Shown here one piece after another: positions 58,914 to 61,595 of a DNA stretch of 64,000 nucleotides. The DNA comes from Alphaproteobacteria bacterium (GTDB lineage: Bacteria > Pseudomonadota > Alphaproteobacteria > Micropepsales > Micropepsaceae), in the NCBI GenBank assembly GCA_019241645.1, contig JAFAWQ010000048.1, forward strand, positions 1 through 64,000, read 5' to 3'. The position numbers and the translations under genes are program-made. Below the pieces are notes generated by a model. That model saw nothing but the letters and a program-made list of their open reading frames with translations, had not been told where the DNA came from and made no database searches. Within the stretch, counting starts at the first letter, position 1. Each line of letters starts with the position of its first letter.

Positions 58914-58923
58914 CGGAGGCCGG

Positions 58924-59664
58924 GTGGCTCGCCTCACTGCCTACAACCGCAAGCGCGATTTCGCGGTTACGCCGGAGCCGCCGGGCCGCATCGGCAAGAG
59001 CGCCGGCGCCCGGCGCCGCTTTGTCATCCAGCGGCATGCCGCGACGCGGCTGCATTTCGATCTGCGGCTGGAGCTGGACGGCGTCTACAAATCCTGGGCG
59101 GTGACCAAAGTGCCGTCGCTCGATCCGGCCACCAAACGCTTGGCGGTGGAGGTGGAAGACCACCCTATCGACTACGGCACCTTTGAAGGCACCATTCCCA
59201 AGGGCGAATACGGCGGCGGCACGGTGCAGCTGTGGGACAACGGCACCTGGTGGCCGCAAGGGGAGAATCCCCAGCGCGATCTTGCCAAGGGCAGCTTGAA
59301 GGTCTGCTTCGACGGCAAGCGCATGAAGGGCGGCTGGGCGCTGATCCGGCTGCGTGATGATAAGACAGGCTTCCGCCGCTCGACGCGCCACAACTGGCTG
59401 CTGATTAAGGAGCATGACGATTCCGCGCGGCCCGGCGAGCCGGACGCGCTGGCATCGGAGGTCACCTCAGTGAAGAGCGGACGCACGCTCGAGGAAATCG
59501 CCAGCCGCTCGCGCAATGTCTGGCACTCCAATCGCAGCGAGACGAGCGAGCCGGAACCGAAGCCGCGCGCCACGGCCAAGCGCGCCACGGCACCGGCAAA
59601 GAAAAAACCCGCTGCCGCGCCAAAGCCGAAACCCGCAGCTAAAAAAAAACTCCGCAAGCGTTGA
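58924..59664 (+). CDS. ligD: LigD 3'-phosphoesterase (PE) domain protein, N-terminal part of a split DNA ligase D
   Basis: 246 residues, GTG start with GGAGG 5 bp upstream. The PE domain trims 3' ends in non-homologous end joining. RRRFVIQRHAATRLHFDLRLELDGVYKSWAVTK holds the metal-binding His residues, and DYGTFEGTIPKGEYGGGTVQLWD and GGWALIRL complete the fold. After about residue 195 comes a Lys/Ala/Pro linker (KKKPAAAPKPKPAAKKKLRKR). The stop is 13 bp after an A9 tract inside this linker. The following frame encodes ligase and polymerase domains, normally in one chain with PE. Confidence 0.93.
   Translation: MARLTAYNRKRDFAVTPEPPGRIGKSAGARRRFVIQRHAATRLHFDLRLELDGVYKSWAVTKVPSLDPATKRLAVEVEDHPIDYGTFEGTIPKGEYGGGTVQLWDNGTWWPQGENPQRDLAKGSLKVCFDGKRMKGGWALIRLRDDKTGFRRSTRHNWLLIKEHDDSARPGEPDALASEVTSVKSGRTLEEIASRSRNVWHSNRSETSEPEPKPRATAKRATAPAKKKPAAAPKPKPAAKKKLRKR
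59641..59664 (+). other. A9 tract at the ligD frame junction, candidate slippage site
   Basis: Nine A at 59641-59649 precede CTCCGCAAGCGTTGA. The PE frame stops at 59662. The LIG-POL frame is in -1 relative to it and is closed by a TAA at 59640-59642, the first base of which lies just before the tract. A -1 slip on AAA AAA, or one extra A in the transcript, joins both frames without a stop. Confidence 0.7.
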
Positions 59665-61595
59665 TTGCGCCGCGTGCGCCCATGCCGCGTTTCGTGGAGC
59701 CCCAGCTGGCGCGCGTTGTCGACATGCCCGCGGGCGGACCCGCATGGGTGCACGAGATCAAGTTCGACGGCTACCGCATGCAGCTGCGCGTGGAGAAGAA
59801 GCGCGGCCAGCTGCTCACGCGCAAGGCGCTCGACTGGGCGCATCGCTTCCCCGAGATCGTCGCGGAAGCATCACGCGCCCTGCCCGATTGCATCCTCGAT
59901 GGTGAAGTGGCCGCGCTCGATGAAAAAGGCATCAGCAATTTCGGCGATCTGCAAGCCGCGCTGTCGGACGAAGCTACCGGCGATCTCGTCTATTTCGTTT
60001 TCGATCTGCTGCATCTCGACGGCCGCGATTTGCGCCGCCTGCCGCTGACCGATCGCAAGGCCCAGCTCCAGCAACTATTGAAGCAAAAACTGCCGCGCTC
60101 ATCTCGCATCCAATATGTCGAGCACTACGAATCCTCCGGCAAGGAGATGCTGGAAGCCGCCTGCCGCATGGGGCTGGAAGGCATCATCTCCAAGCGCGCC
60201 GATGCGCCCTACAAACCGGGCCGCGGCAACGACTGGACGAAAGCGAAATGCCGCGGCGGACAGGAGATCGTCATCGGCGGCTGGCGCGGCACGTCCAGCA
60301 ATCTGCGTTCGCTGCTCGCCGGCGCCTACAGCAATGGCGAGTTCCGCTACATGGGCCGCATCGGCACCGGCTACAATGTGAAATCGGCCGGCGAATTGCT
60401 GCGCAAGCTGAAGCCGCTGGAAATTCCGCGGCCGGCTTTCACCAACACGAAAGACATCACGCGCGCGCCCGACCTTCACTGGGTCCAGCCCAAGCTGGTG
60501 GCGGAAGTCGAATTCGGCACCATCACGTCTGGCGGAATCCTCAGGCAGGCGAGCTACAAGGGCTTGCGCGAGGATAAGCCCGCGAAGAACGTGGTGCTGG
60601 AAGCGCAACCGGCGGCCGAAGTGAAATCCAAAGCCAAAAAGCCCGCGCCGAAAGCAGTGATCGTCGGCAAGACGAATGTCGTGAGCGGCAACAAGGGCCT
60701 CACCATCCGCGGCATCGCCATCAGCAATCCCGACAAAGCGTTGTGGCCGGCCACGAAAACATCGCCCGCCGTCACCAAGGCCGAGCTTGTGCGCTACTAC
60801 GACATGGCCGCTTCCCGCATCCTGCCGCACATCGCCGGCCGCCCGCTTTCCATCGTCCGCGCGCCGGACGGCATCGGCGGCGAGCAATTCTACCAGCGCC
60901 ATGTCGTGCCGGGGCTGCAGGCCTATGCGAAACCCATGCGCATTGCCGGCGAAAGCAAACCCTATTTCTCCATCGACTCGGAGGAAGGCCTCGTCGCGCT
61001 GGGGCAGGTCGGCGTGGTGGAGCTGCATCCCTGGGGCGCGCAGCCCGGCAAGCCGGAAGTGCCGCAGCGGCTGATCTTCGATCTCGATCCCGCGCCCGAT
61101 GTCGGCTTCGACACCGTCATTGCCGCGGCGAAGGACATGCGCGCGCACCTGCAGGCGCTCGGCTTCACGCCGTTCGTGAAGACGACCGGCGGCAAGGGCA
61201 TTCACGTGGTGATCGCCATAAAGGGCGCGCCTGCAAAGCCGGTCACCTGGGACGAAGCGAAAGCGTTCGCGCGTGACGTGTGCCTGCAGATGGAGCGCGA
61301 GGCGCCGGAGCGCTACACCACCAACATGTCCAAGAAGGTGCGCGGCGGCAAAATCTTTCTCGACTTCCTGCGCAACGCGCGAACCGCAACCGCGGTGGCG
61401 CCGTGGTCGCCCCGCGCGCGGCCCGGCGCGACCATCTCGCTGCCGCTGCCATGGAGCAAACTGCGCGCCGGACTCGATCCGGCGCAGTTCAACATTCCCA
61501 ACGCCGCCAAACTGCTGCGCGCCCCCGATCCGTGGAAGGACATCGACCAAACCGCCGTGAACCTTGAGGTGGCAAGGAAGAAATTGGGTGATTGA
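59661..61595 (+). CDS. ligD: DNA ligase D, ligase and polymerase domains (second part of split ligD)
   Basis: 644 residues if started at the TTG (TTGA) overlapping the PE stop; an ATG at 59682 is the alternative. The ATP-dependent ligase domain has nucleophile Lys34 in VHEIKFDGYRMQLR, then DGEVAALDEKGISNF, LVYFVFDLLHLDG, GLEGIISKRADAPYKPGR and the OB fold. A Lys/Ala linker at about 315-335 leads to the POL primase-like domain with LIFDLDPAPDVGFDTVI (metal-binding Asp pair) and TTGGKGIHVVI. This is the LIG-POL part of a Pseudomonas-like PE-LIG-POL order. Its frame is open back to the A9 tract. Ku is not in this window. Confidence 0.93.
   Translation: MIAPRAPMPRFVEPQLARVVDMPAGGPAWVHEIKFDGYRMQLRVEKKRGQLLTRKALDWAHRFPEIVAEASRALPDCILDGEVAALDEKGISNFGDLQAALSDEATGDLVYFVFDLLHLDGRDLRRLPLTDRKAQLQQLLKQKLPRSSRIQYVEHYESSGKEMLEAACRMGLEGIISKRADAPYKPGRGNDWTKAKCRGGQEIVIGGWRGTSSNLRSLLAGAYSNGEFRYMGRIGTGYNVKSAGELLRKLKPLEIPRPAFTNTKDITRAPDLHWVQPKLVAEVEFGTITSGGILRQASYKGLREDKPAKNVVLEAQPAAEVKSKAKKPAPKAVIVGKTNVVSGNKGLTIRGIAISNPDKALWPATKTSPAVTKAELVRYYDMAASRILPHIAGRPLSIVRAPDGIGGEQFYQRHVVPGLQAYAKPMRIAGESKPYFSIDSEEGLVALGQVGVVELHPWGAQPGKPEVPQRLIFDLDPAPDVGFDTVIAAAKDMRAHLQALGFTPFVKTTGGKGIHVVIAIKGAPAKPVTWDEAKAFARDVCLQMEREAPERYTTNMSKKVRGGKIFLDFLRNARTATAVAPWSPRARPGATISLPLPWSKLRAGLDPAQFNIPNAAKLLRAPDPWKDIDQTAVNLEVARKKLGD

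Follow-up and report, generated by a model that had tools for sequence, protein, structure and literature searches.

The ligD locus in the window

The DNA analysed here (the window) is a stretch of 64,000 nucleotides, positions 1 to 64,000 of contig JAFAWQ010000048.1 in assembly GCA_019241645.1, from an alphaproteobacterium of the family Micropepsaceae, and our subject is its gene for DNA ligase D, ligD. The locus lies on contig C24 of a 2.87 Mb draft genome (G000; 53 contigs, 99.7% complete). In bacterial non-homologous end joining (NHEJ), LigD of the Pseudomonas aeruginosa kind carries its domains in the order 3'-phosphoesterase (PE), ligase (LIG) and primase-polymerase (POL). All three are present in the window, yet they are spread over two open reading frames (ORFs) that lie −1 apart, and no single ORF holds them all.

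The first ORF, on the forward strand like every feature given below, runs from a GTG at 58924 to a TGA at 59662–59664 and encodes 246 amino acids. It comprises the PE domain (59029–59349, residues 36–142; Pfam LigD_N, E 1.9e-41; TIGR02777) and, beyond it, a lysine-, alanine- and proline-rich tail. A GGAGG at 58915–58919 is its likely ribosome binding site, pairing with the anti-Shine–Dalgarno (anti-SD) sequence at −8.8 kcal/mol against a background median of −2.1. The second ORF, LIG-POL, extends in the −1 frame to 61595 and encodes the ATP-dependent ligase catalytic domain (59733–60248; Pfam DNA_ligase_A_M), the ligase C-terminal domain (60297–60578; DNA_ligase_A_C) and the POL domain (60774–61535; LigD_Prim-Pol). 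The NCBIfam models TIGR02777, TIGR02779 and TIGR02778 and four Pfam LigD models all score above their cut-offs on the two ORFs, and the full-length model PRK05972 matches both halves, each below its 895-bit cut-off.

The two frames meet in nine consecutive A (A9) at 59641–59649, read AAA AAA AAA in the PE frame, and the PE stop comes 12 nucleotides past this putative slippage tract. A TAA at 59640–59642, whose two A's are the first two of the nine, closes the LIG-POL frame upstream, and that frame is open only from within the tract. The heptamer A AAA AAA at 59643–59649 is in the phase that permits a −1 ribosomal slip; a slip there would join 242 residues to the 648 codons of LIG-POL that follow the slip site (59649–61595) into a chain of 890 residues. 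Such a product would continue from the lysine codons into TPQALIAPR, and the PE product ends in LRKR. The first-pass annotation of this DNA had described the tract, the frame relation and a restored chain of about 890 residues, all of which the sequence bears out. Compared with the three-domain NHEJ LigD as described in PMC8656161, the domains are the same and Ku is likewise present, but here a conserved frame change interrupts the chain within the linker, and the locus would yield a one-chain LigD only if slippage occurs. The Ku gene of this genome lies on a different contig from ligD (C40); Ku was found in 16 of the 17 genomes searched and adjoins ligD in 11.

Conservation of the split and the A-run among relatives

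We examined ligD in a sample of the order comprising 96 genomes of one family, 51 of which had a PE match. Junctions were examined by script in 48 of these genomes, in a second ligD of genome G016 and in two further loci (L077 and L079), giving 51 rows; G033, G020 and G047, which have no adjacent LIG match, were omitted from the counts, and L075 and L076 were dropped as duplicates of G071 and G073. PE and LIG-POL lay in two frames in 16 rows, namely 15 genomes of the order and L077 (CAIKMD010000007.1), and the direction was −1 in all 16. A run of eight (A8) or nine A, in frame with PE and ahead of its stop, was present in 13 of them (12 of the 15 order genomes plus L077), and 10 of these 13 runs were exactly nine long (G000, G012, G028, G032, G039, G041, G070, G071, G073 and L077; A8 in G050, G051 and G052). 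The three split genomes that lack a tract are G016, G022 and G023, in which the PE stop overlaps a GTG, an ATG and an ATG, respectively. The proposal that relatives would keep both tract and split, which the first-pass annotation had put forward as its own test, thus held.

The remaining 35 rows, among which we placed G036 and the second G016 ligD, were not split in this way: 34 were in one frame, and a run of at least eight A occurred in three (G014, G053 and G087). The first-pass annotation had taken uninterrupted ligD in relatives as a sign of error or private mutation; such genes do exist, the more distant relatives being fused and mostly tractless, and they date the split to one lineage without refuting slippage.

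The same annotation had also offered a sequencing error, nine A recorded for ten, as an explanation. Homopolymers are indeed prone to error and to mutation, some members of the split clade (G014, with A8, and G011) are fused, and G036, outside that clade, exemplifies a lone frame change. Yet the same −1 relation recurs in 16 genomes, none of the 13 run lengths would join the frames, and species differ in their tails, their stops and the linker that flanks the run. Because relatives keep both tract and split, including the single-contig genomes G051 and G052, an error in sequencing or assembly, a private mutation or a phase-variable ON/OFF tract is a very remote explanation, and we set the first two aside. 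Phase variation was rejected as well: no tract species has a run length that joins the frames, and among clade members such a reading would fit only the fused, A8-bearing G014.

Several loci in the order depart from both patterns. In G036 (L104, C113:109400-113000), a member of the fused clade whose close sister G001 is fused, a −1 frame change lies deep in the ligase domain with no A-run, and the PE frame stops within that domain; it looks like a recent mutation or error and contrasts with the tract species. The fused genes with an A9 or A8 linker in G087 (L114), G053 (L066) and G014 (L054) have a stop in the +1 frame within 21 to 95 nucleotides, and slippage there would shorten the product, the mirror image of the window's ligD and similar to dnaX of Thermus. 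In G020 (L023/L120) and G033 (L033/L105), PE is followed directly by POL and the LIG match is on a different contig, which is another way of dismantling LigD in this order. G047 (L106, C8:1800-5400) keeps a PE remnant in which only residues 1–101 match (77–79% identity) and has no LIG-POL match in its genome; it may have lost ligD. G028 has a second PE start, 90% identical, at a contig end (C206:1-2500, L122), perhaps from another strain or copy.

A maximum-likelihood tree was built from PE and LIG-POL with the linker removed (64 rows, quick search, SH-aLRT support only; G015, the second G016 copy and G412 were additionally omitted, and the outgroup rows do not all fall on one side of a branch). 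All 16 split rows belong to one clade of 18 rows (SH-aLRT 100), the other two being the fused G011, in a trio with G012 and L077 (support 100), and the fused G014 (branches of 86 and 81). The split label requires three changes on this tree, of which the starred branches alone force two, and we read this pattern as probably one gain of the split followed by two re-fusions. The tract is missing from the sister pair G022 and G023, beside the tract-bearing G039, and from G016, beside the tract-bearing G050, G051 and G052.

Selection on the A-run and coding character of both frames

We drew synonymous codons at each locus's own usage and scored the outcome for runs of at least eight. Such runs were seen in 13 of the 16 split linkers against 3.3 expected (P = 4.6e-9 if rows are independent), and in 3 of the 35 non-split rows against 0.98 expected. 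Because the split rows are related, the test was repeated with one row per lineage: 5 of 7 carried the run when a tractless row was chosen wherever present (P = 0.004), and 7 of 7 when a tract-bearing row was chosen instead (P = 1.5e-6). Lysine codons were AAA and AAG in a ratio of 29:7 inside the tract and 42:72 elsewhere in the same linkers, a contrast that is partly circular because the rows were selected for the run.

Codon choice beside the run points the same way. In seven species the codon preceding AAA AAA AAN ends in A (TCA in three; GGA, GTA, GCA and TTA), although it encodes serine, glycine, valine, alanine or leucine, for which A-ending codons make up only 2 to 9% of usage; the residue varies in these species and the third-base A is constant. 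The locus DNA is 63% GC. Across 17 genomes of the group, each genome has 0 to 7 exact A9 runs, and 9 of the 53 lie at the ligD site; in G032 and G039 the ligD run is the sole exact A9 of the genome. Fifteen bases, GCTAAAAAAAAACTC, are identical in G000, G028 and G041, and the surrounding linker differs. From these comparisons the A-run appears to be kept by selection and is longer than the amino acids require.

Another exact A9 in G000 (C15:25126-25134, L002) lies inside a frame that stays open for at least 935 codons, where slippage would truncate the product; judging by eye, we take this frame to be restriction-modification-like.

Past the tract, both frames also look like coding sequence. 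Between the tract and the ligase domain, the −1 frame holds no stop in 228 codons summed over the 13 tract species, and the third frame over the same span is stopped in 8 of the 13. The tail of the PE frame after the tract has 83 lysine or arginine residues among 163 in the 16 split genomes (the last 12 codons being used for the three tractless ones), where the −1 frame has 25 such residues and the +1 frame 48. Since the basic tail is a property of the PE frame itself, it is probable that the short product is a real protein, and a gene simply broken and rescued does not fit this pattern.

Can LIG-POL start by itself?

A genuine split, also raised in the first-pass annotation as coupling at the TTGA, would have PE and LIG-POL made as two proteins, LIG-POL being translated by coupling at the PE stop and the tract being a mere lysine-rich linker. 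Part of the evidence agrees with this. A start codon overlaps the PE stop in all three tractless split genomes (ATGA in G022 and G023, GTGA in G016), and LIG-POL can probably be made separately in these genomes. In the window, the PE stop overlaps a TTG at 59661, and an ATG follows at 59682; of the 13 tract species, 5 have an overlap of this kind (ATGA, GTGA or TTGA). LigD domains as separate proteins are known elsewhere (PMC7719229), and PE was found with no adjacent LIG in 7 of the 23 loci of the class that we examined (see below).

The codon simulation and the bias at codon ends argue against the coupled split, as does a LIG frame that stays open from tract to domain in every one of the 13 tract species. 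The TTG and the ATG of the window have no ribosome binding site (+2.0 and +0.6 kcal/mol, respectively), and in the tract species generally, anti-SD pairing is poorer than the background median at those candidate LIG starts that lie no further in than the domain boundary. Five tract species, G012, G028, G032, G051 and L077, have no boundary start at all, and their PE stops are all TAG. Two of these, G028 and G051, have a LIG frame that is closed at the tract and whose first ATG, GTG or TTG lies 12 and 22 residues, respectively, before the lysine of KxDG, inside the domain; we take KxDG to be the ligase motif that contains this lysine. Neither has a standard LIG start ahead of the domain.

Several observations nonetheless weigh against slippage as the general route to LIG-POL. 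In 8 of the 13 tract species an ATG, GTG or TTG stands at or just before the ligase domain; fused relatives (for example, G029, G008 and G093) also carry an ATG at the same residue, so its presence there is no proof of a start. Of the five species with no boundary start, three (G012, G032 and L077) carry a LIG-frame start codon ahead of the tract, and in G032 and G051 a GTG stands about four residues inside the ligase domain, which leaves G028 as the one strict case and G051 as nearly strict. The tract is dispensed with altogether in G022, G023 and G016, and lysine-rich linkers explain part of the run, the chance of a run of eight reaching 0.47 in one tract species. Nor do the PE starts have better SD pairing when best candidates are compared (medians −2.8 for PE and −3.25 for LIG), the LIG median being no worse because in-domain GTGs are included; the SD comparison is therefore weak evidence, only the boundary starts lacking SD pairing. 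On balance, a coupled start between two genes probably holds for part of the clade, and we consider it improbable, though not negligible, as the account of the tract-bearing loci, for which we prefer slippage.

Proposed slippage by polymerase or ribosome

That one locus gives both free PE and full LigD by slippage, as the first-pass annotation had supposed, gains support from the comparison, and we infer that slippage of one kind or the other is likely to occur at the ligD tract, with both products made. As to the machine that slips, we lean modestly towards RNA polymerase over the ribosome. An A-run of at least eight that joins two frames and is conserved beyond amino acid need is one of the marks of a gene with transcriptional slippage, and this is found at ligD; a run length of eight to nine that is partly maintained by third-base choice also favours the polymerase. 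Selection against such runs is evident from about nine in many genomes, according to Baranov et al. (PMC1088944).

Programmed −1 ribosomal frameshifting on A AAA AAA or A AAA AAG would give the same two products. Its share is contained within the likelihood that we give to slippage of either kind, and taken alone we regard it as unlikely. An in-phase heptamer is present in all 13 tract species, A AAA AAG being the only one in the three A8 species, and A_AA.A_AA.G is among the most efficient motifs in Escherichia coli given stimulators (PMC4066793); however, such a heptamer comes with every in-frame run of this length, and 10 of the 13 runs are exactly nine although shorter ones would suffice. 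A conserved RNA stimulator was sought and not found: simple hairpin folding against single-base shuffles showed no stem consistently present downstream (z-scores above −1.5 in 12 of 13; G073, −3.3), and upstream SD-like tetramers occur in just 2 of the 13 tract species, at −11 and −21. The 43 transfer RNA (tRNA) matches of G000 include two tRNA-Lys genes (UUU and CUU), as in Thermus, where having two may be relevant to the use of polymerase slippage (Atkins review, PMC5009743). A point that tells for the ribosome, and against the polymerase, is the uniform direction of the frame change, −1 in 16 of 16; Antonov et al. (PMC3711429) treat uniform direction as a sign of ribosomal rather than transcriptional slippage, and a direction varying between orthologues, which they use as a heuristic and not as a requirement, is not seen here.

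Returning to polymerase slippage, the arrangement that we propose is a single gene decoded in two ways. Standard decoding would end 12 nucleotides past the A9 and release a basic-tailed free PE of 246 residues; slippage in the A-run, most likely the addition of one A by RNA polymerase, would yield the 890-residue PE-LIG-POL. The arrangement would have arisen once in this alphaproteobacterial clade and the tract then been held by selection, some members having an overlapping start codon and two lineages having lost the tract. The fuller claim is that selected transcriptional slippage at the A9 sets the stoichiometry of the LigD domains, supplying free basic-tailed PE together with a set fraction of full LigD, that it is kept across two genera of the order and that a start–stop overlap replaced it in some lineages. 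This claim as a whole we advance tentatively, judging it slightly less probable than its negation.

Known systems offer close parallels. In Thermus thermophilus dnaX (tau/gamma; PMC1088944, PMC5009743), as in ligD, a sense-strand A9 lies in a gene of DNA metabolism, the cell has two tRNA-Lys and one gene gives two length variants (as is proposed for ligD). In dnaX, however, it is the long product that needs no slip and the short one that slippage makes, whereas in ligD the short product is in frame and slippage would lead to the long one; moreover, slippage is proven for dnaX and is proposed from comparison for ligD. The tssM1 gene of Citrobacter rodentium (A11; PMC4256274) resembles ligD in layout, with a stop after the poly-A run and, as is proposed for ligD, slippage leading to the full-length protein and both lengths made; it is a different gene with a longer run, and has experimental proof there and in Yersinia, unlike the comparative case made here. 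The GeneTack clusters with poly-A frame transitions, including a two-ORF dnaX (PMC3711429), likewise hold adjacent ORFs joined by a poly-A run and kept across species; the main text of that paper does not name LigD, its sole mention of 'ligase' being Mur ligase. Literature searches over titles and abstract openings, in which subscription journals are thinly covered, returned no report of LigD slippage. Slippage at A-runs as such is already known from dnaX and tssM.

Occurrence outside the order and other features

PE matches were found in 64 of 385 genomes of a class sample and in 95 of 398 genomes of a phylum sample. We examined 23 class loci (14 chosen mostly for a short open frame and 9 others) and 6 short-frame phylum loci; the remaining matches were taken as fused from open-frame length alone. 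A LIG match lay on the same stretch in 16 of the 23 class loci, 15 of them in one frame and one, the AT-rich G412, in the +1 frame; the other seven had PE with no LIG match there and no A-run above seven near PE. Two of the six phylum loci (G711 and G720) had a stop between PE and LIG with no A-run of at least seven, and four had no LIG match. The tract-type split was not seen among these 29 loci outside the order.

In five of the class loci (L152, L153, L154, L156 and L157) the PE frame ends shortly after the PE domain and the fetched stretch has no LIG match; elsewhere in the class, PE seems to occur as a free protein. The stops between PE and LIG in L255 (G711:C17:183000-187000) and L256 (G720:C5:103800-107500) belong to far relatives of the same class. 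Within G000, further LigD-type ligase and polymerase genes lie at C47:38084-39019 and C51:8304-10162, those on C51 being adjacent, and in the window the two ligD ORFs are preceded by otsB/otsA-like genes, named by eye from their translations.

Implications

An annotation that looks only at ORFs would report these genes as two proteins or as a broken gene. If the proposed mechanism is true, it would be, to our knowledge, the first case in which slippage sets the ratio of a free end-processing nuclease to a complete repair ligase. The clade amounts to a natural experiment, with members that have a tract and no boundary start, a tract and an overlapping start, an overlap and no tract, or fused genes, and this variety makes it possible to test why PE is kept tethered to LigD in some bacteria and free in others.

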